Below, in pieces: positions 7,878-62,333 of a DNA stretch of 64,000 nt (position 1 is the stretch's first letter; every line of letters starts with the position of its first letter). Both the position numbers and the translations under genes were made by a program. The notes below the pieces were generated by a model. That model searched no databases and was not told the DNA's origin. It was given only the letters and a program-made list of their open reading frames with translations. The DNA comes from Clonostachys chloroleuca (Eukaryota > Ascomycota > Sordariomycetes > Hypocreales > Bionectriaceae). Where the stretch lies: positions 22,382,001-22,446,000 of the forward strand of contig JBANAY010000003.1 of NCBI GenBank assembly GCA_037952775.1. Direction: 5' to 3'.

Positions 7878-8776
7878 AATTTATAAATAAAATATATTAT
7901 AAATAAAAATTATTTTTAAATTATTTTTAAATTATATATTAAAATAAATAATATTAATATATTTTAATAATTAATTTTTTTTTTTAAAAAAATAAAATTA
8001 TAAATAAAAATTATTATAAATATTTTTATAAATATATTAATATATAAAAATAAATATTTTTATAATATAATATTTTTTTAAATAATTATTAATATAATTA
8101 TTTATATTTTATTAAAATTAATTTTATAATATTTATATATTAATAATAATTTATATTATATAATTTATAATATTTTAATTAATTATTTTAATTTAATTAT
8201 ATAATAATAATAATAATAAAAAATATTATAATAATTTTAAAAAAAAATTTAATAAAATAAAATAATATTTTAAAATTCTTAATTATTTAATAAATAATTA
8301 AATAATTTATATTATATATAAAAAATTTAAAAAAAAAATATTTAAAAAATATTTAAAAAAAAATTTAGTTAATTTTATTAATTTTAAAATAATTTAAAAA
8401 TTAAATTTAAATTTATAAAAATATATTTTATTAATATTATAAAATAATAATTTTAAATATTTTTATATAATTAATATAAAAATAAAAAAAAATTAAAATA
8501 ATTATAATTATATTAAAAAATTAATTAAAAAAAATAATAAATTTTTTTATTTTTTTATAAAATTTAAAATATAAAAAATAATATTTAAAATAAAATTTAA
8601 TTTTATAAATATTTTATTATATTTTTTAAACTAATAAATATATTTATTATTATATAAAATTATATTTAATTTTTTAATTAATATATTATATTTTTTTTTA
8701 AATATTTTAAAATAATAATTAATTTATTTATTATAATTTTAAATATTATTTAATTAATTTAATTTAATTTAATAAA
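7878..8776. repeat. Tract almost free of G and C
   Basis: By direct reading, 7878-8277 is 400 consecutive A/T bases. Across 7878-8776 only three G or C bases occur (8278, 8368, 8631). Part of it (about 8020-8215) still aligns with the dispersed repeat found elsewhere with C and G present, so the tract is a mutated repeat rather than a simple-sequence expansion. Confidence 0.9.
8020..8215 (-). repeat. AT-rich dispersed repeat, copy 3 (completely C/G-depleted)
   Basis: The skeleton of copies 1 and 2 can be followed base by base (ATAATATTTATATATTAATA, TTATATTATATAA), with every former C or G now T or A. It dates the extreme mutation as acting on a member of the same family. Confidence 0.5.
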
Positions 8777-9079
8777 CTTTTTAATATTTTAATTTAATTT
8801 AATTTTTATTTATTTATTTAATATAATTAATTTAAATAGATTTTAAATTTAAAAAATTATTTATATAATTCTTTATAAATATAATAAAAATTAAAATTAT
8901 TTATATATTTTTTTAATAATTAATTATTAAATAAAATAATAAATTTAATAAATATAATTATTAAGTTTATATATAAAAAAAATTAGTTTTATTATTATAA
9001 ATAGACTTATAATAGATTATAAATTTAAATAATTAATATATAAAAAGAAATTCTAATAATTATTATTAATAATAATTAT

Positions 9080-15935: not shown

Positions 15936-17850
15936 ACTTTTAATTATTAAGAAATTATTATATATTAAGATTTACTCTATAGACTATAGGGTAAATTAAG
16001 ATTACCCTATATTAATTAATTAAATAATATATAATTAGTATAAGGTAAGAAGAAATAAAATAACTAACTTAGAGCTTTCTAAAGCTAGAAACTCTCTAAA
16101 GCTACTAGCCTAATCTACTATAGCTACCTATTAAGATAATTATATTAATAGTTATAACTATTATAATAGCTATTATAGTATTTATACTAGTAATCCTATA
16201 TTATACTAAAGTAGTTATATTAGTAGACTTTATATCTACTATAGTACTTATATTAGTAGATCTTATATTTACTATATAAGAACCTTAGTACTTAGTTTAG
16301 TAAACCTTATAATTATTATAATAGCTATATTAGCAGACTTTATATCTACTATAGTATCTATATTAATAGTTTTATATCCCTCTATATAAGAATCTTATAG
16401 TAGTTATAAGTCTATATTATAGAAGGTAATATATTATCTTCAGGGCCTTTATAGTCTAGAAATACCTATAAATATAGAGCTTCCTTCCTACTAAATAGAG
16501 ATTCTATAAGTTACTAATATATTCTTTTATCTACCCTATAGTCTATCTTTCTTAGCTACTCTATAGCTAATAGAGCTTTATTTTCTCTTATAGAGCCTGT
16601 ACCTTCTACTATATCTTTTTAAATAATCCTTCTTTAGTATTTCAGAGCCTACCCTATAGGCTTTATCTACTCTAGATCTAGCTTATCCTATAACTAGTCT
16701 ACCCTATACTAGAGACCTTAACTTTTTAAAATTATATTCTTCTAATATTTAATAAAATTTTAATTTCTATTAATTCTAATATAGATTTATAAAAGTATTT
16801 TTTTACTCTATATAACTAGTAAACTAATTTATTAATAAGTTTATATCTTATAACTATAATAATTCTAATATAATATTATAGGAATTTAATAGTATTAAGT
16901 TATATATAATATTAAATTTTTTCTTTTAAATTTTAATTATAAAATAATTAGTTTTAGAGTTAATAATTCTATTATTATATTTAAATAATATTCTATTTAG
17001 AATTATAATATTATAGAACTTTTCTTTTATTTTCTATAGTAAATAGAATTAATTAATTACTATTAGTAAGATATAATTACTTAATACTCTATAGTTTATT
17101 TATATTATAAGCTTATTTTCCTTAATTTTAATATTTATAATAATATTAATTAAATTTCCTCTTTTAATAGCTTCTAGGATCTTCTAATTTAATATTATTT
17201 TATTATACTATAACTCTATTATAGTTAGTTTATATTATTTTTTATCTAATTAATTTATTATTTAAGTTATTCTTATTCTTCTTTATTCTTAGATATTTAT
17301 CTTAGAATATCTATAAGTATTTTTAGTTTATCTATATAATTAGAAATAAATTATTTATATTTTTTTCTTTATTTATTTAGTTTACTAATAATTATAAGTA
17401 TTTCTTTATTAAAATAAGCTTTATTTTATTTCTTTTTATTAATAGAGATAATTTTTTATTCCTCTATATTACTACTTTCTCTACTATTTATTAGAAATAG
17501 TATATCTTACTTATAGTATTATTTTAATTCTTCTTTCTATAATTAGTATTATTATAAATATAATTTAATAGGATTTATATTATTATTATTATATCTAGCT
17601 AGTTCTAATAATATCTTTTTAGTTTCTAAATAGTTTCTATACTTTTAGTTATAATATTATTTAATCTAATTATTATATTTAGCTATTATCTAATCTTTAA
17701 GATCTTTATTTTTATATTATAATTTAATTTTAATCTTTTTATAGATTTTATATCTAGACTTAGAGTATAGTTCTATTAGTAGCTTACTATATATATATTC
17801 TTTAGAGTATTCTTCTAAATTCTCTTTAAAGATAATATATTATCTTATAC

Positions 17851-18025
17851 TGTCGGGATAGCTAGTTAGTCAGGGCTCTTGCGATCACGTGGCCTAACCA
17901 CGTGACCGCTCCAGCCTCTATTTAACCCCGGGCCACGGGCCCGTAGGTCAGCTAGCTAGATAAGAACATACACAGAATACAACAGAACCTATCCAACAGC
18001 ATATGCTAAGGAAGTCCTTCCAATA
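17851..18025 (+). repeat. 5' LTR
   Basis: 175 bp. It holds a TATTTAA box (17919-17925) and two CACGTG boxes (17886-17891, 17899-17904) set as an inverted repeat, so it can plausibly drive transcription. It differs from the 3' LTR at two positions that I can see (17880 and 18024), both T here and C there, implying a recent insertion. Confidence 0.88.
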
Positions 18026-18300
18026 CTGATCAGTGCTGCAAGGCAGCTACAGATCAGCTAAGAAGAAGAGATAGGATCTCCGAAATACTCAGGAAAGTGC
18101 AGTCCTTCTGTGAGTGTTAATCCTATGCTACAGGCTAGAAGAAGTGAGTGGAATAACGACGCTGTTATCTTTCTGCAGCTTCAACTAGTTGCTTTAGAGA
18201 CTGCTCGTTCCTCCAACGACGCTGTTGGCACTGGAAACACCTCTGAAGAGCGTCATATCACGCAGACAACGCTGCCCCTTTCACTAGGCTAGGCAGCTAG
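18026..18300. other. Leader between 5' LTR and hairpin array
   Basis: Begins CTGATCAG and contains a second GATCAG 20 bp later, so it can fold immediately after the LTR. No TGG primer-binding site is visible. A 60-codon ORF (18110-18292) shows no family resemblance. It may hold the packaging or priming signals of the element; this is inference. Confidence 0.4.
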
Positions 18301-20880
18301 TCGTAACACAGCTGTCTCAACGGACAGCTGTATCGCGAGCCCACGAAGGAGCCGCCCGTACGAAGCTACGGCTTCGGACAGCTGCTTCGTAGGAACCTGA
18401 CGAGCCCGTCTGCGCGAGCCTTCTGGCCCGGACAGCCGTATCGTCAGAACCCGAAAAGCCCGTCTGTTCAAACCTGCCGGTTTGGACAGCTTTATCGCGA
18501 ATCCCTGACCTTCCTGTCCTGACGAGCCTGCGGCTATGGACAGCTAGGTCAGCCAAACCCGAAGAATGCGTCTGTTCCAACCTGTATGGTTGGACAGCCC
18601 TACCGCAAGCCCGCGATCCCTCTGTCCGTACGAGCCTGTGGCTACAGACAGACGTATCGCGAAGACCCGACCGCTCTGTCCGTACGAGCCTGTGGCTACA
18701 GACAGACGTATCGCGAAGACCCGACCGCTCTGTCCCGACGAGCCTGCGGCTACGGACAGCTGGATCGTACACCTTCGAAGAGCCTGTCTAACCCACCCTT
18801 CCTGCGTTAGACAGCTATCTCTAGCTAGAGGCAGCTAGAGGGAGTAACAAGGAAGAGGGGCTATTAGAGATCTAACTAGCTACCTAATAGCTAGTTAAAT
18901 AGCCCTACGGACCCTCTGGAAACCACCTTTGGGGACGGCTAACAGGAGCGACTGTTACATAGCTAGAGAGTATCTAGCAGTATGTATGCCATTCAAGAGC
19001 TATCCCGCAACCCAAACGCCTGGCCAGGTAGCTACCTATCCACACGGTCTCTCTCGGTGGATAGGATCACGAAGAAACTGTCCGTACGAGCCCGCGGCTA
19101 CGGACAGCGATAACACTCGAACACGAAGGCCCTGTCTGCCTAGCCCGTCCCTCGCAGATACCAGCTTCGTGCCCATACGAAAAGCCTGTCTGACCTGCTT
19201 TCCTTCGTCAGACAGCCGTATCCCGAAGACCCGACCTCTCTGTCCTAACGAACCTACGACCACAGACAGCCGAGTCAGTCAACTCTGAAAAGCGTGTCCG
19301 TCTGAGCCCTCGAGCCCGGACAGCCTGACCGCCCATCTACGAATAGCCCGTCCGTACGAGCCCTACGAGAAGACGGCTATTTCAATCTCAACTGAATGAA
19401 CCCGACCAACTTGATCAATCAACCCGGACCTTTCGTTCCCTTTCATGATCACAAGCCCGGGAACACGGGGGACCTCATTGACCCCGAAACTGCCCCTGAT
19501 CATGAAAATCCCTCAAGATGAGAGTTATATCTGACCGCTCCGACCCCTGTCAGACAGCCAATTCCTCTGCCGCGATAAGCCTGTCCGTACGAGCCTGTGG
19601 CTACGGACAACCGTATCGCAAGCCCCTGACCTACCTGTCTTGGCTAGCCCCTGACGACAGACAGCTAGATCAGGGATCCCTGATGATCCCGTCCATCCAA
19701 GCCGACCCCACAGACAGCCAATTGGTCTGCAGCCGATAATCCTGTCTGGCCGGATTGAATACAACAGACACCCCTATCGTCAACCCACGAAGCCCCTGTC
19801 CACACAAGCCGTTAGAAGTGGACAGCTTCACCGCTGAACCTGAAGACCCTGTCCGTGCTAGCCGAGAGCCACGGACAGCCATTTCGTCTTCCTTTGAAAG
19901 TGTTATCTGGGGCTAGCTAAGAGCCACAGACAGCTACTTCGCTGAACCTGATAACTCTGTCCGTGCTAGTCAAGAACTACGGACAGCTACATCATCTTCC
20001 CTTGAAGACCCTGTCCGTGCTAGTTGAGAACCACGGACAGCCTCTTCGTCTGAACCTGACGACCTTGTCCGTGCTAGCTGAGAGCCACGGACAGCTACTT
20101 CGTCTGACCTGTCTGCCCGACCTGACCCTCGCAGACAGCTACTTCGTCTGACCCTGACGACCTTGTCTAATTGACCCGACTTCCTTGGACAGCCACATCG
20201 TCTTCCCTTGATGAATGCGTCCATCCGGACCGGCCAGCCCGGATGAACCCGTCGTCAAACAACTGCTTCTAACAGCAGCGAAATCGTCCCTGCCGACACG
20301 ATCGGACGAACCCGTCAATTTTAAACTAGCCCGGCTAGCTAGTTGTCTTTTCAACAGCCTTCATTGAAGACCCTCGGTAGCTAACACAGCCAATTTGCTA
20401 GCGAGTCTGACCAACCGAAGCCGGCCCGACCGATCCAACGAGACACACCTCTCGTGGCAACAGCTAGGTAACCTAGCTAGCTGTCTTGCCGTGTCTAATA
20501 CAACCGAAATGCCGGACCCTTCGGACCTGCTGACAGCAGCCTCTCCTTCCCTCTCTTGGACAGCTGTATCGCAAACCCACGATCCCTCTGTCCACCTCTC
20601 CAGGCCTCCTTGGACAGCCGTATCGCAAGCACGCGATAACCCCGTCCAACCTCCCTTTCCCTCGCGGACAGCCTAGTCAGTCGGGCCCGACTGACCTGTC
20701 TGCTATCTCATAATAAAGAAAAGACTGCCTGTGGTAGTTATCAGTCTACTTTCTCTTTCCCTCTTGGACAGCTGCGTCATGACTCCGCGATAGCTCTGTC
20801 CGAGATTCCCTTCTCTCGTGGACGCCTTCGTCAGCCGAACCTGACGACCCCGTCCGCAACAGACAGCCTCTAGGGCTTTG
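18300..20880. repeat. Degenerate hairpin array, family A (about 54-60 bp unit)
   Basis: Unit pattern: CTGTCCGTA, a loop rich in CGAGCC and GGCT, then TACGGACAGC, then a spacer such as TATCGCGAA or TTCGTC...GACGA before the next unit. Three nearly identical units start at 18622, 18677 and 18731 (55 and 54 bp steps). Other units diverge strongly, but the two arms of each hairpin usually remain complementary (see findings). Spacers often form their own small stem. Long open frames here, such as the minus-strand 18317-18772 frame with an 18-residue period, follow from a unit length divisible by three. Confidence 0.85.
20713..20733 (+). repeat. Internal duplicate of the 3' pre-LTR junction
   Basis: Twenty-one bases identical to 21521-21541, the purine tract plus the first two bases of the 3' LTR, then the sequence diverges. 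It interrupts the hairpin array and looks like the ghost of an earlier 3' end or a duplicated polypurine tract. Confidence 0.6.
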
Positions 20881-21345
20881 AACCTAGCCCTGATCACTAC
20901 AGCCCGTATCCTCAGGAATACGATCAAGCCTCCGTCAACAGCTTCAACAGCTATGACCTGACGGACCTAGCGTTGATCGTATTAGCCTAGATTCTCGAGC
21001 ATCCGATCAAGCCTCCGTCAACGCCTTCAAAGATGACCGGTCTGACTAACGCCGCGTTGATCGCATTAGCCGCGATCCGCGAAGATAGGATCAGACGGCC
21101 TTGAAGATGACTAGTCTGACGGACCTAGCATTGATCGTGCGAGCCGAGACTCGCGAGAATACGATCACAACCCAGTCAACGGCTTCGAGAGCTCTCAGCC
21201 GGATAGACCGTAAGTTGATCGTATTAGCCGCTGTTCACGTGAATGCAATCAGGACCCAGTTAGCAGCTTCGCGAGCTGCCGGCTTGAGCGACCTATTGTT
21301 GATCGTATTAGCAGCTATTCGCAAGAGGTGGCTACGATGATGACA
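20880..21345. repeat. Hairpin array, family B (about 110 bp unit)
   Basis: A second palindrome family: TTGATCG (20973-20979) pairs with CGATCAA (21004-21010), and TGATCGT (21132-21138) pairs with ACGATCA (21161-21167). The loop reads roughly ATTAGCC...CGCGA. Between them lies a CCGTCA...TGACGG pair. Four to five units are visible. After them, two or three family A units resume before the 3' LTR. Confidence 0.7.
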
Positions 21346-21539
21346 GCTACGGAAACCAGCTGCCGGACAGCTGCTTCAAGCCCCTATGAAAGACCTGTCT
21401 GTAACCCCCTTTCCTCTTAGACACCTTAGTCAACTAGACCCGACCTTCCTGTCTGTAATAGCCTTCCCTCCTAGACAGCCCGGTCAACTGGGCCTGACTA
21501 ACTTGTCCGTGTTTCGCTTCATAAAGAAAAGACTGCCTG

Positions 21540-21714
21540 TGTCGGGATAGCTAGTTAGTCAGGGCTCTCGCGATCACGTGGCCTAACCACGTGACCGCTC
21601 CAGCCTCTATTTAACCCCGGGCCACGGGCCCGTAGGTCAGCTAGCTAGATAAGAACATACACAGAATACAACAGAACCTATCCAACAGCATATGCTAAGG
21701 AAGTCCTTCCAACA
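21540..21714 (+). repeat. 3' LTR
   Basis: 175 bp copy of 17851-18025 with the same TATTTAA and paired CACGTG boxes. It retains the canonical CA end and is followed by the TATAC target duplication. Confidence 0.88.
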
Positions 21715-22455
21715 TATACTATATTATTAATACATAAATTATTATATTTATTCTATAATATATTTATTAGATATTTTTCTATTAGAGTATAAAAAGAAAT
21801 TATTCTTAGTTTTCTCTATTTAATATATTTAATACTAATTATTATAATAAATTATCTAGAATTCTAAAGAGTAATTATATATTTATATAGTTTTTATATA
21901 AATTAATATTTTATATATACTATTACTAAATTATATAGTACTAGTAGTATTATTTCTAAAAATAACTAATTTCTTTAATAAATCTAGATATTATTTTTAT
22001 ATTTTTTCTTAATAATATATATAGAGTTTATTATATTTAGTTTTAATTTCTATTTTTATAAAAAATATTATTCTTATTCTATTATTATTTATAGAATAAG
22101 CTTATTAATATAATAGAATATATATTTATATTTAGTAAATAGTTTAAATCTTAGAACTTATTTCTCTTACTTATATTTTTCTTTAAACTTTTAAAAGATC
22201 TATTAGATATTTTATTATTATTTTCTAAATATATTTAATTTTATATATTTTTCAGATTCTAATATTTCTTAGAAAATAAATATATTTCTTAGGAGAAATT
22301 TAGAAATTATAATAATTATAGGAGTTTCTTTCTAATTAATTTTATATATTATTTTTAAAACTTTAATATTAGTTTTCTTAATTACTTTTAATTACTTCTT
22401 ACTATCTTTAATAGATTTCTAATCTTTCTTTTTTTTATTTTTTTTTAAATTCTAA

Positions 22456-27337: not shown

Positions 27338-27720
27338 CATCTACAGCGCCAAGCTGGTTGCGGCCAGTTTTGAGCGTAACAGGATTTTTATATAATAAGC
27401 CTCGAACTCTATAATACCTTAGTTTAACAATAGTGGTGGTGCCTTTGCTCTCTGAGCGGCATCCCTATGCCGAACACCAGCCGAAGCGGCCAAACTACTT
27501 GCCGGCTCACGTGCCGATTTCGGAAGGGGGGTGGAATGTGCACCGCACTCTCGGAGGTTGAATGCCTATCCAACGGTGATAAGATTATTCCTTATAGTGC
27601 GCATCTCCTTCCCTTGGTGGCTAGTTGGGAACCTGAAATATCACCATCAGGAGTTTTAACTACTCAGTTTTGCCAGAGGTTCCGGTCCAACTTACCAGCA
27701 ACTATTCAGATAACAGCACT
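27338..27720. other. Upstream region of the DUF1445 gene
   Basis: Ordinary composition. Presumed promoter and 5' UTR of the next gene. The overlapping ORF 27467-27724 has no recognisable content. Confidence 0.4.
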
Positions 27721-28532
27721 ATGAGTATGAGCCGACATGATGCTTCAACGGGCGAGCAGTCCCGCATGCTCAGCCGCGAGAACAAAGTCACAATCACCAG
27801 TGGGCTCTCGCCCTCATACCTGCAGGCAAACCTCATCATCCTGCCGTCCCGGTATGCCAGTGACTTCCGCCGCTTCTGTCAGCGCAATCCCGTCCCCAGC
27901 CCTTTACTCGCCGAGTCCTCACAACGGGGCTCTCCCGTTGGTTGGAAATCTTATATTCAGGGGATACCGGACTCAGCTGTCGCAGCTAACTGCGACATCC
28001 GCACCGACGTGCCCCGTTACGTGGTTTACCGCGACGGAGTTCCTATACATGAGAGCCAGGACCTACTGGAGGAGTGGACTGATGATCACATCGCTTTCTT
28101 GCTAGGCTGCTCGATGAGCTTTGAGAGTGCTTTGACCAGGGCGGGTCTTGAACCTCGACACACTACCCTGGACATCAATAACCCAATGTACATTACGAAC
28201 ATCCCGACGAACCCGGCTGGCGTCTTTACTGGTGGCACATACATTGTGTCGATGAGGCCGTATCGCCGAAGTGAACTTGATCGAGTAAGGGAGACTACGA
28301 GACCATACGTTCTGACCCATGGAGAACCGATCGCATGGGGTTGGGATGGGATGGCCAGGCTCGGCATCACGGACATTGACCAGCCAAACTGGGGCGACCC
28401 TCCCCGAGCTCGCTGGGGGGCAAGTTCGGCGAAGCCCAGGGCTTGACAGGCGAGGACGACGACATACCCGTCTTCTGGGGATGCGGAGTCACGCCTCAAC
28501 AAGCAGTGATCACCGCTAGGTGCCCGGGATAA
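27721..28532 (+). CDS. DUF1445 / D-glutamate cyclase-family protein (putative hydro-lyase), one frameshift
   Basis: Family landmarks in order: SPSYLQANLIILP, DFRRFCQRNP with PSPLLAES, DIRTDVPRYVVYRDG, WTDDHIAFLLGCSMSFE, PMYITNIPTNPAG, GTYIVSMRPYR, PYVLTHGEPIAWGWDG and DIDQPNWGDPP. The expected ending VPVFWGCGVTPQ is present as IPVFWGCGVTPQQAV, but one frame over. A run of six Gs near 28415 is short by one base, so the first frame stops at 28446 while the true end is at 28532. Start: the in-frame ATG at 27721 gives the family's normal N-terminus; 27670 would add unrelated residues. The family is named for D-glutamate cyclase activity (D-glutamate to 5-oxo-D-proline) and includes Bacillus subtilis YcsI, encoded with the 5-oxoprolinase genes pxpABC. 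Here a 5-oxoprolinase follows 7 kb downstream. The reaction of this protein is inferred. Confidence 0.8.
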
Positions 28533-29221
28533 TCCTAGCACATGCACCGGGCCATATGTTAGTACTAGATGTAAAGGAAGATGATGTACTTGAAAAGGAT
28601 TGAGATTTCTTGTCTATTGATTGAAGAAAGTCGGTTCTATGTTGAAGGTTTTGTCTATCTAAGAGTCTCGTAGAACTACCTTATATAAGTCGTTTTAACT
28701 GAGTATTAACCAGTATATTTTTTTATTGCCTCCTGCAGGTTTATTATGTGGTATAGGAATGGCGTAAGTTTGAGTGATTATTATTCCAGTTTATTATCTA
28801 CTTGATCCCCCCTCGCCCGCGGCAGAATTGGCGAGGACTTCTCTAATAACTAGCTATAAGTATTAATGCTAATCAACTACGAAGAAAACCCCTCTTCGGT
28901 CCTTATAGATTCGAATCTGCATGCCGACTAGGAAGTCATCGAATACATACTTGCGTGGGAGCCGGACTGCTCGCTCCGCCAGGCGGAATAAAAGCCATCG
29001 GTAACAACTTGCCGAAACGCACTAAGGTACAGTCGCGGGCCGTGGATAGTAATTAAACATAACTAAGTAATAAGTATTTAACACATCAGAAAGTCGCATT
29101 GTGAAGGTCATCATAACATGAAGCAAAGCATCGGAGCAGGACACTTTCAAGTCGCTGTTTATTCGCACGGACAGAAATCTTACGAGGCAACCATACGATT
29201 CAGCCAGCCAGTCAACCGGCC
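28533..29221. other. Intergenic region
   Basis: 690 bp of ordinary composition between two plus-strand genes. No ORF with family resemblance and no RNA gene were found. Confidence 0.45.
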
Positions 29222-30162
29222 ATGGACTGCTCCAAGGTTCTTCAAGCGTCTGGCGTGGACTTGAGAGTGAACTGGGACACATTTTGGAAGATCTTTAGAC
29301 ATGGCTCCGTAAAGGCTAATGGCATCTACCTCCACTATGTCGAGGGCGGAAACGGACCTGTGATCCTGCTAATCCCTTGCTGCTGGCCGCAGAACTGGTA
29401 CTCGTGGCGCTACATCATGCCGGGACTCGTTGATGCAGGTCACCGCGTGGTTGTTGTGGACCCGCGAGGCGTAGGCGACTCGGAGCACCCGGCCAGAGGC
29501 TACGATCTCAAGACACTGGCAACGGATCTTCACTGTTTGGTGGAGGCCCTGGGACTCCTCGCGAAAGGCCCAATCGACGTTGCGGGCCATGGCATTGGGA
29601 CGTGGCTTGGCTATGCGTATGCTGCCGACTGGCCGCAAGACGTGAGACGGCTCACCGTTATGAATGCTTCTGTCCCCGGAGTCTCGGCTTCCCGAACGGA
29701 CCTGGATCCCCTAGAGGTGAACCTCCAGGGCTGGCACTTTGGCTTTAACCGGCTCGACGATCTGCCGGAGCTGCTCCTCAGTGGCCGGGAAAGGCAATTC
29801 ATAACATGGCTTTTCCGGGCCAAGGCCATGAGGCCTTGGACGATCCTGCCTGAGGACGTCGACGAGTACGCCCGGCAGTTCTCCGCGCCGGGAACCATCC
29901 GCGCCCTTAGCGACTATTACAGGACCATATTCAGCCCGGAAGGCGTCGTTGCCAACCGAGCGCGGGCCCAGAAGCAGCTCAGCATCCCGATCCTGGCTCT
30001 CGGGGCGGAGCGCGGCTACGGGGGGCTCTGGTAGAGGCAATGCGGCAGGTCGCGAGCAATGTTAGCGGCGGCGAAATCTCTGGGATCGGCCATTACATGC
30101 TCGAGGAAGGGCCGAAGCAAGTAGGCGACGAAATGATACGATTTTTCGACCTCAGCTCATAA
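29222..30162 (+). CDS. Alpha/beta hydrolase, epoxide-hydrolase-like, nucleophile position altered, one frameshift
   Basis: Alpha/beta hydrolase fold of about 313 residues once read across a frameshift. Landmarks: lid/oxyanion segment IPCCWPQNWYSWR, VVVVDPRGVGDSEHP, then VAGHGIGTWLGYAYA, where epoxide hydrolases and dehalogenases have GHDxG. The nucleophile Asp is Gly here (GGC, one transition from GAC). The catalytic His region IGHYMLEEGP lies after the frameshift at the six-G run near 30020; the first frame ends at 30034, the true stop is 30160-30162. A paralogue lies directly downstream (30937-31820) and shares FNRL..LPE...GRER...WLF. Without the Asp, ordinary hydrolase chemistry is doubtful; it may be inactive or have another role. 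It is probably cytosolic (no signal peptide). Confidence 0.75.
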
Positions 30163-30936
30163 GGCAACCAGCGCCTGACAGTAACAACCACATCGGGGTA
30201 CGGCCAAGCACCTGGGGAATGCATATCATTGACGGATAGCGCTGGTGACTATTGCGGGAAAGGAACATAGAGTATTAATGAATTCCCCTGTTGATAATCA
30301 TCTTCTCACGTTGTAATCCTGTCTTGAGCCAAAAACTATTGCTATGGTTGGTGGTATCTGCTGACTTCAAGCATACATGATCATAACACTGTTTCAATGA
30401 ATGCCCCATAGACGATGCATGTGAATGTAGAGATCCATATTCGGTATATGCAGGTAGACTGATTCCTTCGATGTCAAACTCAAATCTGTATAAGCTGAAT
30501 TCAAGCTAGTCGTTAGTGCAGCAGAGGGGGGAGGGATTGCGCAGGTGATGCGGTGCACTTGTCGGTCGGAGGTTGGTCTGTGAACCGGAAACAAGATGCC
30601 GCGGTTTCGGCAGCAGAAGCCGATAGCCTTCTTTCTGGTCTCCACGCCTGGTGCAATATTAGCAGAGCCATAAGTCTTATGTAAAGGTTCAAGAAACATG
30701 CAAAAGATTGTATTTTATGTATGTCACTTATCAAGCTTCTGGCAAGGGTAGTCTATTGAAACACTCAAAAGTCACTGTCCATTGCAAGGTACGAGAGACA
30801 TTCAATCCAACCTTTGAACTTGCTTGCGTTCGCGGCCTCGCAGCTGTTCTTGTTAGCGGGAGAACGCACCTTGAATCAAGTCGACAAAGGATCGGGCGAT
30901 TAATCATCCCTCTCCCCATCAACTGACCAACCCACC
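30163..30936. other. Intergenic region between the two hydrolase genes
   Basis: 770 bp, ordinary composition, presumed terminator of one and promoter of the other. Antisense ORFs such as 30394-30699 show no family features. Confidence 0.45.
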
Positions 30937-31820
30937 ATGGCTCATGTCAGCCACACCACCAAGACCCTGGGCAGCGGCGTACGCGCTTTAGTCGCAGGCA
31001 AAGGACCTGTCATTATTTGCGTTGCCGGCTGGCCGCAGACCGCTGAATCATTCCTTGATATACTCCCGGCTCTGTCGGAGAACCACCGGGTCCTTGTCCT
31101 TGATCCCCCCGGCCTGGGCGACTCGGCCCCGAGCTCGGGGGGTATAAGACGCAGGCTATCAGCAGGATACTCCTCGATGCCATCAGGGACGAAATCGGCC
31201 ATAGTACAAGCTACCATCTCGTCGGTCACGATGTCGGAGCCTGGATCGCATTTAGCTGGGCTACCCTGGACCGCGAGCAGCTTCGCTCAGTGACCCTGAT
31301 GGACGCCACCATCCTCGGATTCGTCCCCAATGCGACTTTCCCGCTCCCGTACGAGGCCAACATCAAGTCTTTCCAGTTCGCGTTCAACAGACTTCCTCAT
31401 CTGCCCGAGATTCTCACGGCCGGCCGCGAGAGGGAACTTCTTGATTGGCTATTTGACCAGAAATCGGTTCACCCAGAGCGCATCACGCGGGCCAGGCGTG
31501 ATATTTACGTCAACGCATACAGCAGACCGGGGGCCATGACCCAGGGATTCGCGTACTATCGCGACTTCATCGCCGGCGCCGAGGAGAATCAACGAGCCAT
31601 GGCGGAAAAGCTACTGGACATCCCCGTCATGACTGTCGGCGGAGACCACGCGGCCGGTGACGCAATGAAGCCCGTGGCCGCTAATATCACAAAGCAGACG
31701 TCTCTGTCAAGATCCGTCAGTCTTGAACAGTGCGGCCACTATGTGATGGAGGAGCAACCCGAAGCCTGTGCTAATGCGATCCTAAACTTTATTCGCGACA
31801 CTGAGACTATGGGGTCGTGA
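30937..31820 (+). CDS. Alpha/beta hydrolase, epoxide-hydrolase/haloacid-dehalogenase-like, one frameshift
   Basis: About 294 residues when read across a frameshift at the six-G run near 31136-31142. Landmarks: ICVAGWPQTAESF (oxyanion), VLVLDPPGLGDSAP, then in the next frame YHLVGHDVGAWIAFSWA with the nucleophile Asp in GHDVG. FNRLPHLPEILTAGRERE (cap) and CGHYVMEEQPE with the catalytic His follow. Both the Asp nucleophile and the His are present, unlike its upstream paralogue. The family hydrolyses epoxides, C-halogen bonds or related esters; the substrate is unknown. The tandem position suggests duplication. Placement beside the oxoprolinase and RidA genes suggests a step in the same catabolic route, which is inference. 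Confidence 0.78.
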
Positions 31821-32661
31821 AGAGGAACAGAAAAGGAAACGGATGGGAGGCTTGGGCTCGTATCTATTTTCTTTCAAAGCACTTTCGAGAGGTCTGCATT
31901 CAGCAGTCTGTGTAGTTGGTGTCTGCGAGTCAGGGAGGATTATATGGCAAGCAACATTAAGGCCAATCACAGCGGGTGGTTGCTCTTTCGATGAAGAAGA
32001 GCGAGCAACTCGCTGTGTAGCGGTCATAACAATCGCCGTAATCTCTAGCTGCTTTGGCTGAAGCCAGCTGCAGAGACTGCTTACACACACAACTGGGCGG
32101 AAGAGGAGGATGGAAGGAAGGGAGATAGATAGCTAGGCCAGTCAAATACAAGCCCACTTGTCTCTCTCAAACACACACTCACGCCCTCACACCCCCACCT
32201 ACAAGAATGCAGGATATGATTCCGAAAGTATATACTTGGCATCGTAGTACTAATGTGATAATCCATATGTTTTAATTGAGATCGGCCGTCCCGCATCCAT
32301 TAGCCCTCGGCCAAGTCATATCGGGATCCGACCCCGATCAAAAGCCAAGGCACCATATTCCGCGTCGGCATCAGGTTCCCGCAACAACTGAACTTCAATC
32401 GTAGGCGTATTTGTGTCTGGCAGAAGACCGCGGGATATATGGGGCATGTGAGCAAGAGCCTCGGAAACATTATCGGCATGTTATCGTTCCTGTCGGATCT
32501 GGCGTCACTGAGGCATGGTTTGACACATAAGTCTGGCCCAACCTCTGCCTTTTTCTCTCTCTTTTTATCGCGGAATGCACCAATGCCTAGAGTCGTGGCT
32601 TAGTCCTTTTCGCTCTCGAATAAGAAAACCCGATCTTTGGTATCAGAAAGTCATTTCCGAC
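31821..32661. other. Intergenic region upstream of the RidA gene
   Basis: 840 bp without a supported gene. Antisense ORFs (for example 31782-32090) lack features. A CT-rich stretch just before 32570 (TTTTTCTCTCTCTTTTTA) is typical of fungal promoters. Confidence 0.45.
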
Positions 32662-33216
32662 ATGTCTAAGGTAGTCAAGGCCGTTTTCACAAAGAACGCT
32701 CCCTCTCCCCGGGCGGGGATTTATAACCAGGCCATCATCGCCAATGGATTCATTTATACCTCCGGCTTCACACCAGTGGACCCAAAGGTTGGCAAATTAG
32801 TCGAAGGAACTGTTGCAGACAGAGCCGTACGCCGACCCCCAAGTTACTACCTACCTAACCTGGAATTTTGGAAAAAAGAATGCTGATGGTAGACTGAGAA
32901 AAGCTTCAATGCCTGAGGAACATTGGCGCAGTTCTCGATGCTTCCGGGTCAAGCATCAACCACGCAGTCAAGGTGACCGTCTATCTGACCAGCATGAACG
33001 ATTTTGATATCGTCAACAAGGTATACTCTGAGTTCTGGGGAGAGGTGAAGCCTGCAAGAGCGTGAGTCAACCTCCTTATAGTCTATATAACTACAGGGCC
33101 AAAATGCTTTCTCTCAGGGCCTGTGTAGCTAATGTTTTCGCAGCTGTGTCGCAGTCAAGGAGCTACCTAGAGGGACCGATGTTGAGATGGATTGTGTGGC
33201 CATGGTATCTGATTAA
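32662..33216 (+). CDS. RidA / YjgF-YER057c family enamine/imine deaminase
   Basis: Three exons (32662-32826, 32904-33061, 33144-33216) give 131 residues, the normal family length. Introns are 77 and 82 bp with GT-AG ends. Landmarks: APSPRAGIYNQAIIANGFIYTSG near the N-terminus, CLRNIGAVLDASGS, VKVTVYLTSMNDF, VYSEFW, and the C-terminal PARACVAVKELPRGTDVEMDCVA with the conserved Arg that binds the substrate carboxylate. RidA proteins hydrolyse reactive 2-aminoacrylate-type intermediates released by PLP dehydratases. The next gene is exactly such a dehydratase, so the pairing makes biochemical sense. The ATG at 32662 is preferred over an upstream one because the protein then starts at the family's usual point. 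Confidence 0.85.
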
Positions 33217-33681
33217 AGCTTGACTCATAAGCTTAGTTTGAGGCGTCAAGTGTTCAGAAAAGAGGAATTGAAAGATATATTCACCTTCGAAATATGAATA
33301 TTACACATGGCAGTAACCTAGTAGTGATGCGTTCGTGGCTATCGTCCGAGTTTATAGTTAGTCATACAGCCCGCTGCCTATACTGAGTCGTTCCTACTTC
33401 CCTGGCACGGAATGCCAACTTTTTATAGAGTATTCCTCCTTATTATGTTCCATAGATGTTTAGTTACCTACTTTATCAATCCATCAGCCTGCATCAGATA
33501 GACCACGCTCAGCATAGGCAGTAAGCTTATATCTTGCCTAGTTGCATTAGGTACATGCATTTGCTATTTATTTCTGTACCCTTGATACTTGACTTGCAAT
33601 TTTATTCTGGGGATATAAGAGAGTATACTTCATAGCCCATATCAGGTCTTTTACTACTCCATGCTTATGTATCCTCATCCT
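33217..33681. other. Convergent 3' intergenic region
   Basis: 465 bp between the 3' ends of the RidA gene (+) and the dehydratase gene (-). It probably holds both terminators. Nothing else is recognised. Confidence 0.45.
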
Positions 33682-34821
33682 TCATGACTCCTCGCGGACA
33701 AGATCACCAATGGCATCAAGGTTAATGTTCCCTCCGCTGAACACAACGGCCAAGTTGAATACACCACCACTGGCCTCTCTCTCCACCATCGTCCGAAAAT
33801 CTTCGTTGAAGAGGGCAACCGCTAGAGGCACAGTCGAGCTAGGTTCTACAACGACCTTCAGCCGCTCGAGGACAATCCGCAGAGCCTTCTTGATCTGCTC
33901 GTCCGTGACCGCGTAAACTCCGGCGACTTTGGTCCGATCGCTGATGACTGACCATGGGATCTCGCCCACCGACGTGCGAAGACCGTCCGCAATGGTGAGA
34001 GACCTGACGCGGTCGATCCTCTTGCCTGCCGCCAGCCCACGACGGCAATCGTCCGCTCCTTGATAGCTGGGCTCAGCCCCGAAAACTTTGATGCCAGTGC
34101 CGATACAACTGGTCGCTACGCCGCTCAACAAGCCACCACCTCCACAGGGCAAGATGACCGCGTGTAGTCTGCCAGCCTCAGGGGTCTGGTCCAGGATGCT
34201 CCTGGCCTGCTCCTGCAGCTCTAGTCCCAGCGTTCCCTGCCCGAGGAGGACATCGGGATGGTTGAACGGAGGCACGAATCTGGCGCCCGTCTTCTCAACA
34301 ATATCGGACACGGCTGCCTCTCTCTCCTGCAGCGTGTAGCCACTAAACACCAGCTCCGCCCCGTAAGCCTCTGCGGCAGCGATCTTGTTGGGCATCGACA
34401 CTAGCGGCATGACAATCCGAGCCTTGATCCCCAGGTCCCTTGCGGCTAGTGCTACAGCCTGCGCATGGTTGCCGGAGGAATGAGTCACCACGCCGCGTTC
34501 TTTCCAGTCATTTGAGGCTTCGGCGTCCTTCAGTGTTTCTTGTTGATACCGGAGCAGCGAGTTGAAGCCGCCCCTGGCCTTGAACGCGCCGATCCTCTGC
34601 AAGTTTTCACATTTAAAGAAGAAATGGATTCGCGGGTTCGCAGGAGGGAGCCCTTCCCACTGGGTACCCTTTAGTGCTTCCTCTGACTGAGGTACGCTCG
34701 CGATCGAGTCGATGGACTGAGCAGTGAGGAGCGGCGTGACATGGACGTGAGCCACGATTCGCGCTCTTGCCTCGATGACGGACTCTCTGCTCAGGGGTGG
34801 ACAAGTGCTCAGGTCCGCCAT
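33682..34821 (-). CDS. Serine/threonine dehydratase or serine racemase-like PLP enzyme
   Basis: Single exon, 379 residues, fold-type II PLP enzyme. Landmarks: FFFKCENLQRIGAFKARGG with the cofactor Lys at about 81, SSGNHAQ (115-121), the phosphate-binding PCGGGG (225-230), and GAEPSYQGADD, where Glu, Ala and Asp match the metal site of serine racemase-type enzymes. VFSGGN lies near the C-terminus. It lacks the C-terminal ACT regulatory domain of biosynthetic threonine deaminase, so it is a catabolic dehydratase or racemase type. There is a family-atypical insertion of about 20 residues (SVPQSEEALKG...PPANP) before the FFFK strand. It is transcribed divergently from the oxoprolinase gene, and RidA lies on its other side. 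Likely reaction: deamination of L- or D-hydroxy amino acids to 2-oxo acids; substrate not determinable. Confidence 0.85.
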   Translation of the reverse strand: MADLSTCPPLSRESVIEARARIVAHVHVTPLLTAQSIDSIASVPQSEEALKGTQWEGLPPANPRIHFFFKCENLQRIGAFKARGGFNSLLRYQQETLKDAEASNDWKERGVVTHSSGNHAQAVALAARDLGIKARIVMPLVSMPNKIAAAEAYGAELVFSGYTLQEREAAVSDIVEKTGARFVPPFNHPDVLLGQGTLGLELQEQARSILDQTPEAGRLHAVILPCGGGGLLSGVATSCIGTGIKVFGAEPSYQGADDCRRGLAAGKRIDRVRSLTIADGLRTSVGEIPWSVISDRTKVAGVYAVTDEQIKKALRIVLERLKVVVEPSSTVPLAVALFNEDFRTMVEREASGGVFNLAVVFSGGNINLDAIGDLVREES

Positions 34822-35484
34822 GGCTGTCTGCAGGCTGGTGGCTGGTGGCTGCTATGGTATAATACGAAATGGGATTGCCTTGATATCTGAAGGCTAACCT
34901 AAAGAGCAAGGCCGGTTGGATTGTCAAAGACTCAATAAGACAGTCCTCAGATTTAGTAGCCGGGTGCCCATTGTAGGAGGAATATAACTCGTCTGCACGA
35001 GGGACACAAAGGATGCTTTACCTACCGCCGAATAGGGTGAATGCAAGGCCCAGACTACTGGCCCCGGCACCAGTCGGATGCATGATGCCGAAAATCAGGG
35101 GGTTAGGGCTAGCCGCCTCACGCAAGGTTCCCGAAGAGCGGCGACGCAGTAGAGCGAGCGGAGCCGATGACTCGGATCCTTGATACCGGCCGGCTGGCCC
35201 CGATACCCGTACAGCCCCGAGGTGCCTAGTCGTTCGTCCCTCATCGGGATCTTGATGATAGTGCATCTAGCATGCCGTCGGCTTTTTTCTATGTACTAAA
35301 AACTTGTGATTCGTCGTGATGGGATAATTTTCTATCTGCAAATCTTGGAGAGTTCAACTGATTAGTATTAATATTACCCTTTGCTCAACTGACGGGGCCA
35401 GACTTGGAAAACAATACACCTTCACACTCTGAATCCCCCTAACTTAATTCCTTCGACCAAACACGAGTCTCAAAAGCAGAAGAG
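34822..35484. promoter_or_regulatory. Divergent promoter between dehydratase and oxoprolinase genes
   Basis: 663 bp shared upstream region of two divergent genes of the putative catabolic cluster, so joint control is plausible. Several CGG/CCG triplets, the half-sites of Zn2Cys6 regulators, lie in 35020-35230, but such triplets are common and no clear palindrome stands out. Confidence 0.4.
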
Positions 35485-38400
35485 ATGCCTTCTGCAACTG
35501 TCAAGGGCACCCGTATCGCTATTGATCGAGGTGGTACGTTTACCGATTTCTGGGCCCGCATCCCTGGACGCAAGGACGATGTCGTCTTTAAGCTGCTTTC
35601 GGTATCCCCGGACGAATACTCAGACGCCCCTTCGGAAGGTGTCAGGAAAATCCTCGAGATTGCTGAAGAAAGGCCAATACCTCGCGGAGAAGCATTGGAT
35701 CTCAACCAAGTAGAGAGCATTCGGATGGGCACTACGGTTGCAACGAACGCATTGCTGGAGCGGAAGGGGAAGAAAATCGCTCTCCTCCTGACTAAGGGCT
35801 TCGGAGACCTTCTCATTATCGGCAACCAGGCTCGTCCTAAGATCTTTGATCTTTCTGTGAGAAAGATGGAGAAACTCTACCAGAAGGTTATCGAGATCGA
35901 CGAGCGGGTCACGGTAGAAGGCGCCACAGAGGATCCGGAAGCACCCAAGGGCCTCGACCCGAATGACCCGGACCTCGTCGTGGGACTTTCTGGAGATGTG
36001 ATTCGTGTATTGAAAAAGCCGGATTTTGATCAAGTACGGAGAGACCTCCAAGGCCTGTGGGATGAGGGCTACCGCAATCTGGCGATTGCTCTCATGCATT
36101 CCTACGCATATCCCGAGCATGAAGTCGCAGTCGCGCAAATCGCCAGGGAGATGGGCTTCGAGATTGCGGTGTCATCCCAGCTGCAGCCGATGATCAAGGT
36201 TGTCAACAGAGCGCAGTCGGCGACAGCGGATGCCTATCTGTCACCCGTCATCCAGGAGTATCTGGCGAGCTTCGCCAAGCGCTTCAAAGGCGAGTTCAAG
36301 GACTCGGAGAACCTCAACAAGCTGCTTCTCTCCCAGTCAGATGGAGGCCTTACAACCTTCCAGAACTTTACCGGTCTCCGTGCCGTGCTCTCCGGCCCTG
36401 CCGGTGGAGTCGTCGGAATGGCTAAGACGTGCTGGGACAAGGAAGACGGCACCCCCGTCTTGGGGTTCGATATGGGCGGGACTAGCACCGACGTCTCTCG
36501 TTTTGGAGGCAGGTATGAGCATATGTTCGAGAATACCACGGCTGAGGTCACCATTCAGAGCCCCCAGCTGGATATTAACACAGTGGCCGCCGGTGGTGGT
36601 TCAATGCTGTTTTGGCGCAATGGTCTGTTTGTCGTCGGTCCAGATTCCGCCGGAGCTTTCCCTGGCCCTGCGTGCTATGGCAAAGGCGGACCACTCACAA
36701 TCAGTAGGTTGATTGATACCTCCCGGATCTGCCCCATAGTTCCCAGTCATTGATCATGTTTCTAACACAATGTTTTCCCTTCTATGTAGCCGATGCAAAC
36801 CTGTTCCTCGGTCGCATTCTCAGCGACTATTTCCCTAACAAGCTGGACCACGATGTGGTCCAGAATAAGTTCCTCGAGTTGACAAACGTGGTCAACTCTG
36901 AAAAGCATGGCAGCGATAAACTGACACCTGAGGAGGTAGCCATGGGGTTCCTGCAAGTGGCCAATGCCGCCATGACTCGGCCGATCCGAACGCTGAGTGA
37001 AGGGCGTGGATTCGAGACAAGCTCACATAACCTGGCCTGCTTCGGCGGCGCAGGAGGACAGCACGCCACTGCCGTGGCCAGGGATCTTGGCATCAAGAGG
37101 ATCCTGATTCACCGTCTCTCGAGTATCCTGTCGGCCTACGGTATGGCCCTTGCTGATGTCGTCGTGGACGTACAGGAACCAGAGTCGGTCGCATTTGGAC
37201 CTGATACCCTCCTACACATCCAGAACCGCCTCGAGGCTCTGCAACAGAAAGCTACCGAGAGACTGCTCCCCCAGGGCTTCAGAGAGGAGCAATGCATCCA
37301 CGAAAGGTTCCTCAACATGAGATACGAGGGCAGTGATACGGCCTTGATGGTCCCGCAGCCGGAGAATGCTGCTGACTTCCCCGAGGCCTTCTTTGTTGCC
37401 CATCAACAGGAGTTTGGCTTTACTCAGCAACGCCGCGTTCTCGTCGACGACATCCGCGTCCGCAGTGTGGGCCGCGGATTCGATGTGCAGACTTCGAGCC
37501 CGTTTGAGCAACTCAGGGACCCGCATGCCATTCGTGTCGGCACAGCAGACGCCAAGTCGACGCGCCAGGTGTACTTTGAAAATAAAGGATGGACCGACAC
37601 TCTTGTTTTCCACCTCGCTGACTTGCCTAAGAGAGCCTTCGTCCAGGGGCCGGCCATCATCATAGACTCTACGCAGACCATTGTCCTTGACCCTGCCAGT
37701 ACAGCGATAATTCTTGACGAGCACGTTGTTATCGAGCTCTTGGATACCGACAAGAAGAAGATCGACAATGAGACTGTGGACCCTATTGCCTTGTCAGTCT
37801 TCGGACACAGGTTCATGAGCGTGGCCGAACAGGTAAGCCGGATTGTTTGCCCTTCCTTTAATTCGACAGGCTGTTGATGACCGACTGGCTGACGAGAAAA
37901 TTTTATTTTCTTCAATAAAGATGGGAACCGTCATGCAAAAGACTTCCATCTCTACTAATATCAAGGACCGGCTCGACTACTCCTGTGCTATCTTCTCCGC
38001 AAATGGCGGGTTGACGGCGAACGCGCCACACATCCCCGCTCATCTGGGATCAATGTCTACGGCCATCGCCTACCAGGCCCTAAGATATGCAGAAAAGGGA
38101 TCCCTGAAGCCGGGCGATGTGCTTCTCTCGAACCACCCGAGTGCCGGCGGAACCCATCTTCCTGATCTCACAGTGACGACGCCCGTCTTTGACGAGGCCG
38201 GAGAGGAAATCCTTTTCTTTGTGGCTAACCGCGGCCATCACGCTGACATTGGTGGCATTGCAGCTGGTTCCATGCCCGGCAACTCAACAGAGCTATGGCA
38301 AGAGGGCGCGGCCGTTGAGTCTTTCAAGTTGGTCAAGGAAGGCCGTTTCGACGAAGATGGACTTCGCGAACTGCTCATCGACATCCCAGCCTCGTATCCC

Positions 38401-39608
38401 GGATGCAGCGGCACAAGGACCTGGAAGGACAACGTTGCCGACCTCAAGGCCGGCATCGCGGCTAATAACCGCGGCACGCAGCTTCTCCAGGACCTTATCA
38501 AGGAGTATACCTGGGAGGTTGTCAAGTTCTACATGATTGCCATCCAGAAGAACGCCGAGGAGAGCGTGCGCGAGCTTCTCAAGATCCTCAGCAAGCGCTT
38601 CCGCGGTCTCCCGCTGTCGGCTGTAGACTACCTCGACGATGGAACTGAGCTTGCGTTGAAGGTCACAATCGACAGCGAGACTGGTTCCGCCAAGTTCGAT
38701 TTCACGGGCACAGGTCCCGAAGCATTGAACAACCTGAACTCCCCCCGGCCGTGATCCACAGTGGAATCATCTATTGTCTCCGGTCCATGGTCCAGTCCGA
38801 CATTCCGCTCAACCAAGGATGTCTCGCGCCCATCGAGGTCTATTGTCCGCCTAATACCGTTCTCTCCCCGAGTCTGACCGCCGCCACTGTTGGCTCCAAC
38901 GTGGAGACCGCTCAACGTGTTATCGATGTTATTTTCAAGGCCTTCCAGGTCACTGCTGCTAGTCAGGGTACATGCAATAACCTTACCTTTGGCTACGGCG
39001 GCACGGACTCGAATGGCAACGTCACCTCCGGTTTCGGCTACTACGAGACGATTGCAGGAGGTACTGGTGCTGGGGCCGATTGGGTCGGCCAGAGCGGCGT
39101 CCATGTAAACTCCTCAAACACCCGAATGACGGACCCCGAGGTATTTGAAAAGCGATACCCTGTCCTCCTCCGCGAGTTCTCTATCCGCAAGGGCAGTGGT
39201 GGCGCTGGAAAGAACCGTGGTGGCGATGGCTGCATCCGCGATATCGAGGTCCGCCGCACCATGTCCGTCAATATCTTATCCGAGCGCCGCGTCGTGGCTC
39301 CGTACGGCCTGGCTGGCGGAGAGTGCGGCAAGAAGGGTGTAAACTATTGGGTCAAGCTGGAACCGGATGGCTCGACCAAGACCATCAGCATGGGGGGCAG
39401 ATCCACGGCGTTAATGAGAAAGGGCGACAGAGTCATCATCCACACGCCCGGCGGCGGCGGCTATGGCCCACCTGAAACGACGAATAAGCCGCCAGAGGGT
39501 TTGTTCGCGTTCAAGATGCACGAGAAGTTTGTTGGCAACATGAAACCACACGCCTTCAAGACCTCTGGAAGTGTTGGGAATCGTGCTGCTGCGGCAGAGT
39601 CCACCTAG
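35485..39608 (+). CDS. 5-oxoprolinase / N-methylhydantoinase A+B fusion, ATP-dependent, one frameshift
   Basis: Three exons (35485-36703, 36790-37832, 37921-39608; introns 86 and 88 bp) give about 1316 residues, close to eukaryotic 5-oxoprolinase. HyuA half: IDRGGTFTDFWAR ATP-binding start, MGTTVATNALLERKG, SGPAGGVVG, DMGGTSTDVSRFGG, AAGGGSM, GPACYG, FGGAGGQHA. HyuB half: QKTSISTNIKDRLDYSCAIF, NAPHIPAHLGSM, LSNHPSAGGTHLPDLTV, FFVANRGHHADIGG, PGSMPGNS-like GSMPGNSTE, DFTGTGPEALNN, FGYGG, and TPGGGGYGPP at the end. Exon 3 has one lost base in a run of six Cs near 38745, shifting frame between NSP and AVIHSGI. The family cleaves 5-oxo-L-proline to glutamate with ATP, or hydantoins. It is probably cytosolic. 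Placed with a DUF1445 gene, transporter and regulator, a 5-oxoproline or cyclic-amide catabolic role is likely. Confidence 0.9.
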
Positions 39609-61260: not shown

Positions 61261-62333
61261 ATGCGGTTCACGTCCCTCGCTCACATAATCAACTTGGCTG
61301 CCCTGGCTAGAGTTCAGGCCAAACCTTTCCCTCAGGATGGCGATCTGAATCTACCAACGCACACAGTCGCAAGTGTCAATCAGACAGGATCATGGTTAGA
61401 GAACCTTGCCGTACGCCCCAACGGAGATCTCCTGGTGACGATGATGGTGCCAGATGCCACGCTTTACCATGTCCAGTCTCCCGGTTCTACGAATGCACAA
61501 CTCGTTCCGCTCTACAAGTTTCCCAACGCTACGGGCCTTGTGGGCATTACAGAGCTCGGTAACGACAGGTTTGCGGTGAACATGCATAACTTCTCATCAT
61601 TTGTGACTCCAGTTGCCGACACTGGAGCTGTGTGGGAGATTAGCTTTTCAAACACCCACAAGGATGACTTCACTGCTCGGAAAGTGACTGTCATCAAGGG
61701 AGCCGGATTTCTGAACGGGATGACTCCTCTCACCACGAAGAACAACAAGTCGCGCAATTGCAAGGCAGAGACAAGTCTCATCGTGGCGGATTCATACGCG
61801 GGTGTCATACGCCGCGTGGACCTCTCAACCGGAGCCTATGAGACAATTCTTGATGCCCCCGAGCTAAAGCCCGGAGTGGCCAGTCCTTTTGGGGTTAACG
61901 GTGTCCACGTTAGGGGAGATTATCTCTACTTTACAAACACGGCTCTTCGGGCGCTCTACCGCATCGCAATTGACTCGTCGGGCTATCCTTTGAAGAATGC
62001 TGCTGTGGAAGTGCTCCTCTCGTTGCCTGATCTGGCCATTATTGACGACTTTGCCTTCGATAAGAAGGGAAACATCTGGGCAGCCGCGTCAAGTAACAAC
62101 TCGGTATTGGTGATCTATAAGAACGGGGGATCCAAGGAGTATAGCACCTACAAGTCCGCTGCGGGAGCGATCACCTCTCTCGCTCTTGGGGGAGTTACAG
62201 CGACAGCCTTCGGGAAGGGGGTGATTCACATACGCTTTTCGCGTCGACTTCTGGTGCCAGCGCTTTTCCTGTCAATGGCACAGCGACCGAGCCTGGGAAA
62301 GTTGTGGCTGTCGATCTGTCTAGTGTCCTGTAG
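61261..62333 (+). CDS. Secreted SMP-30/gluconolactonase-like six-bladed beta-propeller protein, one frameshift
   Basis: Single exon, about 357 residues when read across a frameshift. Signal peptide MRFTSLAHIINLAALARVQA with cleavage near residue 20. Propeller strands are marked by WLENLAVRPNGDLLVTMM, LVGITELGNDRFAVN, SLIVADSYAGVIRRVDLSTG, FGVNGVHVRGDYLYFTNT and IIDDFAFDKKGNIWAAAS. At 62216-62221 a run of five Gs appears one base short: the first frame runs into unrelated text and stops at 62361. The next frame continues with LFASTSG, FPVNGT and GKVVAVDLSS to a stop at 62331-62333, the expected end for this family. Potential N-glycosylation sites (NQT, NAT, NFS) agree with secretion. Function unknown; relatives include lactonases and proteins in secondary-metabolite clusters. 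Confidence 0.78.

Follow-up and report, generated by a model that had tools for sequence, protein, structure and literature searches.

LARD type elements are known from cereals and carry kilobase LTRs, and the term LARD is also in use in fungal genome papers. The passages of PMC7215508 that deal with such elements describe a LARD as an LTR element that has a core domain but no coding sequence, is presumed to move in trans and is said to specify a conserved RNA structure, and TRIMs as almost entirely without internal domains. In the portion of PMC4918200 relevant here, retrozymes are non-autonomous LTR elements with structured RNA and with end boxes common to an autonomous family. The part of PMC8794818 that concerns hairpins presents template switching as a process that both makes and mends stems, leaving perfect stems and compensatory changes in a single event.

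We analysed a window of 64,000 nt from Clonostachys chloroleuca (GenBank assembly GCA_037952775.1, contig JBANAY010000003.1, positions 22,382,001 to 22,446,000 of the forward strand). The segment 17851-21714 of this window is a non-coding LTR retrotransposon whose body, between the leader and the 3' LTR, is largely made of hairpin repeats. It resembles a LARD in being an LTR element with a non-coding core (interior of about 3.5 kb), but its LTRs are 175 bp and not kilobases long, and its core consists of tandem hairpin units. Short LTRs and the lack of coding sequence are shared with TRIMs, from which the element differs by the length of its interior, 3.36-3.5 kb across the full copies. Like a retrozyme it is a non-autonomous LTR element with ends common to a presumed autonomous family, but it is larger and carries its structure in the body, and no Rfam match to a hammerhead ribozyme was obtained in the window at gathering score. 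Quasipalindrome correction, argued for DNA replication and RNA genes in the same part of PMC8794818, is here proposed for a retrotransposon hairpin array. Among the papers listed by a search of the literature at the level of titles and abstract openings, covering few subscription journals, none describes a fungal LTR element with a hairpin array.

The element and its copies in the genome

The assignment as an LTR retrotransposon follows from LTR pairs, 5-bp target duplications, full copies and solo LTRs. The first-pass annotation had described hairpins here and had not recognised that they form the body of such an element, adjoining a structured leader. The features outside the leader are listed below; hairpin array blocks 1 to 5 come from motif and arm-pairing analysis.

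17846-17850, no strand: left target-site duplication TATAC, matching 21715-21719
17851-18025, plus strand: 5' LTR of 175 bp, TGTCGGG...CCAATA, with 2 mismatches to the 3' LTR; its first 173 nt match the genome at 21 places
18352-18814, plus strand: hairpin array block 1, 54-nt period, 9 units
19078-19376, plus strand: hairpin array block 2, 6 units
19527-20192, plus strand: hairpin array block 3, 13 units, including a 98-nt stretch missing from the other two copies
20588-20825, plus strand: hairpin array block 4, 4 counted units
20715-20724, plus strand: a further, internal occurrence of the purine tract AAAGAAAAGA, within a 76-nt internal repeat (77%)
20875-21333, plus strand: second repeat array with 74-84-nt spacing and stems of the TTGATCGTAT...ATACGATCAA type (repeat families D9 and D11; hairpins)
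21395-21478, plus strand: hairpin array block 5, 2 units
21523-21532, plus strand: purine tract AAAGAAAAGA, candidate PPT read directly, 7 nt before the 3' LTR and not abutting it
21540-21714, plus strand: 3' LTR of 175 bp, TGTCGGG...CCAACA, from LTR pair comparison and genome matches
21715-21719, no strand: right target-site duplication TATAC, matching the left one

Both LTRs start with TG and finish with TA (5' LTR) or CA (3' LTR). The LTR search covered the element's own genome (59.4 Mb, 4 contigs), where the 21 matches comprise three pairs spaced 3.5-3.7 kb apart, 14 isolated copies and a partial match of 66 nt, that is, 3 full copies and 14 solo LTRs. All three full copies have LTR pairs of 175-179 bp, and a 5-bp target duplication flanks 16 of the 17 insertions, L029 being the exception. 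The two LTRs of a full copy differ by 2, 0 and 1 mismatches, respectively, and this near identity suggests a recent insertion. The window copy is embedded in AT-rich surroundings (about 12-21% GC) despite its young-looking LTRs. At 8001-9000 of the window, GC drops to 0.8% over 1 kb, far under the neighbouring AT-rich DNA. On the other side, within 27670-39608, the window has a D-glutamate cyclase (27670-28446), a serine-racemase-like gene (33682-34821) and hydantoinase/oxoprolinase domains (35485-36753) in close proximity, perhaps a catabolic cluster. The serine-racemase-like gene has one 100% match and named relatives, for the most part from ascomycetes, of about 60% identity.

The longest listed ORF of the interior (151 aa) lies inside the 54-nt-periodic part; a coding origin of the array was rejected, as this ORF spans block 1 only and tracks the 54-nt (3 x 18) period. 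Apart from a 171-nt fragment, the array is matched in the same genome by the 3 full copies only. This fragment, at 1501-1671 of L046 on the minus strand, is a 72% relative of the array start and is located in GC-rich DNA where the LTR search was blank. A tRNA-3'-end primer site starting TGG is absent after the 5' LTR, and the leader begins there with CTGATCAG, a hairpin arm. LTR element families with internal-tRNA or self-priming exist, so the absent TGG site does not exclude membership. A second version of the stretch that precedes the 3' LTR and contains the purine tract (21464-21540) lies 0.8 kb further upstream, at 20657-20732, with 77% identity.

Pairing between the arms of the hairpin units

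Each 54-nt period holds one hairpin, composed of CTGTC and a variable inner arm, a loop of about 12 nt, and an inner arm followed by GACAG. The 12-nt flanks outside CTGTC and GACAG also tend to pair, which makes the hairpin longer than first described. These outer flanks pair within their own unit (duplex energy z -4.4, 34 units); an alternative linker hairpin with the neighbouring unit was rejected, its pairing being at chance level (z -0.96, 27 units). The set of 34 units was picked by hand from 40 motif matches, by dropping seven that are out of register (18298, 19000, 19036, 20481, 20696, 21340 and 21533) and adding 18352. The units are related, with a mean identity of 0.54 across 44 arm columns. 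The unit model also scores many of them on the minus strand, as expected of palindromes, and elsewhere in the window, at E up to 1, it matches only 62041-62093 (E 0.54). A known RNA family was considered and rejected, as no Rfam family reached its gathering score anywhere in the window, and a scan for bacterial promoters and terminators gave nothing above shuffles.

The first-pass annotation had quoted six pairs of arms that change together while pairing is kept. All six were located exactly where it had placed them, unit 19581 finishing with GACAA rather than GACAG, and they rank among the better of the 34 units. The arms of one unit match each other beyond relatedness, as an aggregate only. 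Over the four inner variable pairs, 78 of 136 cells (34 units) are Watson-Crick (WC) versus 54.1±5.6 after arm swapping, a count reached in 0 of 5,000 swaps, and own arms do pair better than arms drawn from different units. All four inner pairs are WC in 8 of the 34 units and none in 4, where arm swapping predicts 1.5 and 5.4, respectively. The 12-nt core arms are also favoured by duplex energy over swapped arms (z -3.5). The constant CTGTC/GACAG part, which hardly varies, is without signal, and 9-nt inner arms taken without CTGTC in free register give no energy excess (z -0.07).

Redundancy was removed by grouping the units into 22 clusters at less than 75% identity, and further into 16, 11 and 4 clusters. 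The inner-arm excess has a z of 3.9 at 22 clusters (mean p 0.0002), 3.2 at 16 and 2.6 at 11, and a p of 0.10 at 4; the outer-stem signal fades from p 0.007 at 22 clusters to 0.058 at 16. In a tree null, for which each column was given its own rate and a single FastTree tree was built from the 29 units that also served to count two-sided changes (below), the WC excess is 18.8 versus 0±4.7 (0 of 4,000) and the raw WC count has a p of 0.009. The raw inner count is weak in this null when G-U is included (p 0.09), and the outer stem does not reach significance when the register is fixed.

The signal is called aggregate because no pair taken alone passes an R-scape-like test. With 200 null alignments, the best p was 0.043, corresponding to an E of ~47 over all pairs, and 0 of 15 pairs were significant. 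The covariation proposed in the annotation is hence upheld for the array as a whole, above relatedness in both the clusters and the tree null, and is not found in any individual column pair. Two-sided changes were counted on 29 of the 34 units, five with 29- or 31-nt cores, including 18784 of the six quoted in the annotation, being left out. In these 29 units, 23 cells are two-sided versus 14.1±3.2 in shuffles (0 of 500), with 5-10 in slid controls; neither the pairs with two-sided changes (4 versus 4.3 in shuffles) nor further pair types (13 versus 14.0) are raised. RNAalifold predicts 5 pairs only, with a covariation term of -0.34.

The leader and a putative helper family

Upstream of the array, the leader harbors two hairpins.

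18024-18258, plus strand: leader common to a degraded gag-pol-type family, from genome matches and alignment to L045
18026-18057, plus strand: leader hairpin I, directly after the LTR at the expected primer-site position, conserved in leader relatives, where 4 of 14 pairs have changed on both sides
18072-18125, plus strand: leader hairpin II, where 7 of 18 pairs have changed on both sides and where all four double compensatory changes that separate the window from L045 are located

The leader is matched in whole or part at 25 other places in the genome, with 67-79% identity, and the same junction between LTR end and leader occurs in 19 of the 20 leader loci retrieved. We aligned 14 leaders, namely the window and 13 hand-chosen loci of the 19 with this junction, leaving out six. 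In this alignment, 94.9% of the hairpin cells are paired and 11 pairs have changed on both sides, versus 5.5±1.5 in shuffles that ignore kinship (0 of 500); further pair types are not above shuffles (68 of 500). The cells include 89 G-U and 19 A-C, for which the column products predict 97 and 28, and most of the G-U to A-C ratio reflects column composition, on which either selection or C-to-T decay could have acted. Twelve of the 14 rows are AT-rich and apparently C-to-T decayed. The window, L052 and L045 alone give 11 G-U and 3 A-C, with 15 and 7 expected. By their compensatory changes and their preponderance of G-U over A-C, the latter in part column composition, the two leader hairpins look like a selected RNA. 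The 3' arm of hairpin I ends with GATCAG and could set the primer end at the LTR border, by self-priming or internal-tRNA priming. A GC-normal leader copy with an LTR-like end, at 1507-1611 of L052 on the minus strand, perhaps represents a third related family.

The helper is probably a decayed gag-pol-type family with the same leader and LTR end. L045/L087 is about 6.9 kb long and degraded, with an LTR pair 91% alike over 186 nt, and L045 aligns with the element across the LTR end and the leader. Its protein-like pieces follow the order DTGA (protease-like, by eye), HRFSHLS and NPADTL, which suggests the Ty1/copia order (PR-IN-RT-RH). The copia identity is unconfirmed by HMM (Pfam, RVT_2) and tblastn: Pfam returned nothing above cut-off on 9 helper-family fragments, the open frames of 6 RVT_2 loci gave no tblastn match to the family, and the family is not found among the at least 34 RVT_2 matches listed. 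RVT_2 elements with long open frames are present in the genome and belong to other families by tblastn. The RNase-H-like (pol-like) piece of L045/L087 has at least 31 further close matches (84-91%) and a distant one at 45%, and is separated from the leader by about 5.1 kb at several loci. Among the matches listed, no open frame exceeds 107 aa at this piece and no intact helper was seen, so that the probable helper family appears degenerate here. Searching proteins with a 92-aa helper fragment gave 3 partial Colletotrichum proteins only.

Unit copying, RNA selection and other explanations of the array

Our preferred reading, to which we give a probability of about 0.5, combines an element mobilised in trans, an array renewed by unit copying and templated re-matching of arms, and a leader under RNA selection. 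The element would be mobilised by the proteins of the family that has the same LTR end and leader. Whole hairpin units would be duplicated, lost and exchanged, and drifted arms would be re-matched in blocks when reverse transcription or DNA replication switches template inside the inverted repeat. Such re-matching would leave WC-only arm matches, near all-or-none per unit and alike on both strands. The leader hairpins, by contrast, would be kept by selection on the plus-strand RNA, for packaging, priming or dimerisation.

Matched inner pairs tend to all-or-none per unit (variance 1.74 versus 0.93, 0 of 5,000; mean p 0.003 on 22 clusters), which may also be read as a mix of working and decayed units. 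Where three of the four inner pairs match, the odd pair is G-U in 1 of 8 units. Among the 306 cells at positions 1-9, 18 are G-U and 21 A-C. At positions 6-9, G-U and A-C stand at 0.57 and 0.48 of expectation, and the 95% bootstrap interval of the difference, -0.16 to 0.33, is compatible with a modest G-U preference that the array may have.

When the stems of the 34 units (positions 1-11) were compared between the three copies, no compensatory point change appeared. The double changes are one T.T to C.C (unit 18514) and three WC-to-WC pairs (unit 20109, copy C), the remaining stem differences being single changes. The three WC-to-WC pairs lie inside a 15-substitution tract that resembles another unit, and unit 18514 of copy B reads after its change, by eye, like unit 18730. 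A 54-nt unit is present, together with the 98-nt stretch of block 3, in the window copy only. Two tracts, 19970-20006 (copy B) and 20107-20141 (copy C), account for 27 of the 70 substitution columns; these swapped-unit tracts adjoin the 98-nt difference and may in part be alignment effects. No template-switch event itself was caught in the three-copy comparison. A process that copies arms or units accounts somewhat better for the block-like, WC-only matches and the unit-level differences, which is not a proof.

Selection on a folded plus-strand RNA, whose hairpins would act as repeated Gag-binding or packaging sites, in compaction or in protection, and would be maintained by compensatory mutations, is a close rival and quite possible. 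It agrees with the arm complementarity above relatedness, with the RNA-structured leader nearby and with an excess of stability across the element: folding against dinucleotide shuffles gives a mean z of -2.43 on the plus strand (24 windows, LTRs included), and 13 control windows in nearby genes give 0.22 and 0.05 on the two strands. However, the minus strand is equally stable (z -2.39), many units are imperfect, including the 4 without an inner WC pair, and no individual pair reaches significance. RNA selection is disfavoured for the array because G-U is about as frequent as A-C, folding is alike on the two strands and the copies differ by no compensatory point change. The annotation had offered RNA selection or cruciform-templated gene conversion as the cause of the matched arms; the former is not favoured for the array, and templated copying fares somewhat better. 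Unit copying with templated re-matching thus fits the array somewhat better than RNA selection does.

Alternatively, one ancestral palindromic unit was amplified whole and nothing has acted on pairing since. This is in line with the relatedness of the units, with copies that differ at unit level and with the lack of a significant individual pair, but we consider it improbable, as own arms beat swapped arms at 22, 16 and 11 clusters, if not at 4, and exceed the tree-based independent-sites null. Very improbable is a putative DNA-level function of cruciform-forming palindromes in recombination, chromatin or protein binding, which strand symmetry, WC-only matching and perfect linker palindromes (e.g. 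20676-20695) would suit, but solo LTRs without arrays outnumber full copies by 14 to 3.

Covariation is the usual proof of functional RNA structure. Under the reading by unit copying and re-matching, two kinds seem to coexist in a single young element, a G-U-rich covariation in the leader and a WC-only, strand-symmetric, block-like one in the array. We suggest tentatively, and with more doubt than belief, that the hairpin array is self-mending, a template switch during the copying of each hairpin re-matching the arms and producing 'covariation' without RNA selection beside a leader with selected covariation. If true, the array would offer a natural control wherever covariation is taken to prove RNA function and, if confirmed, would allow a direct test of the extent to which copying mechanisms by themselves imitate selected structure. 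Among non-coding LTR elements, this one may also represent an additional form, with short LTRs and a hairpin body.
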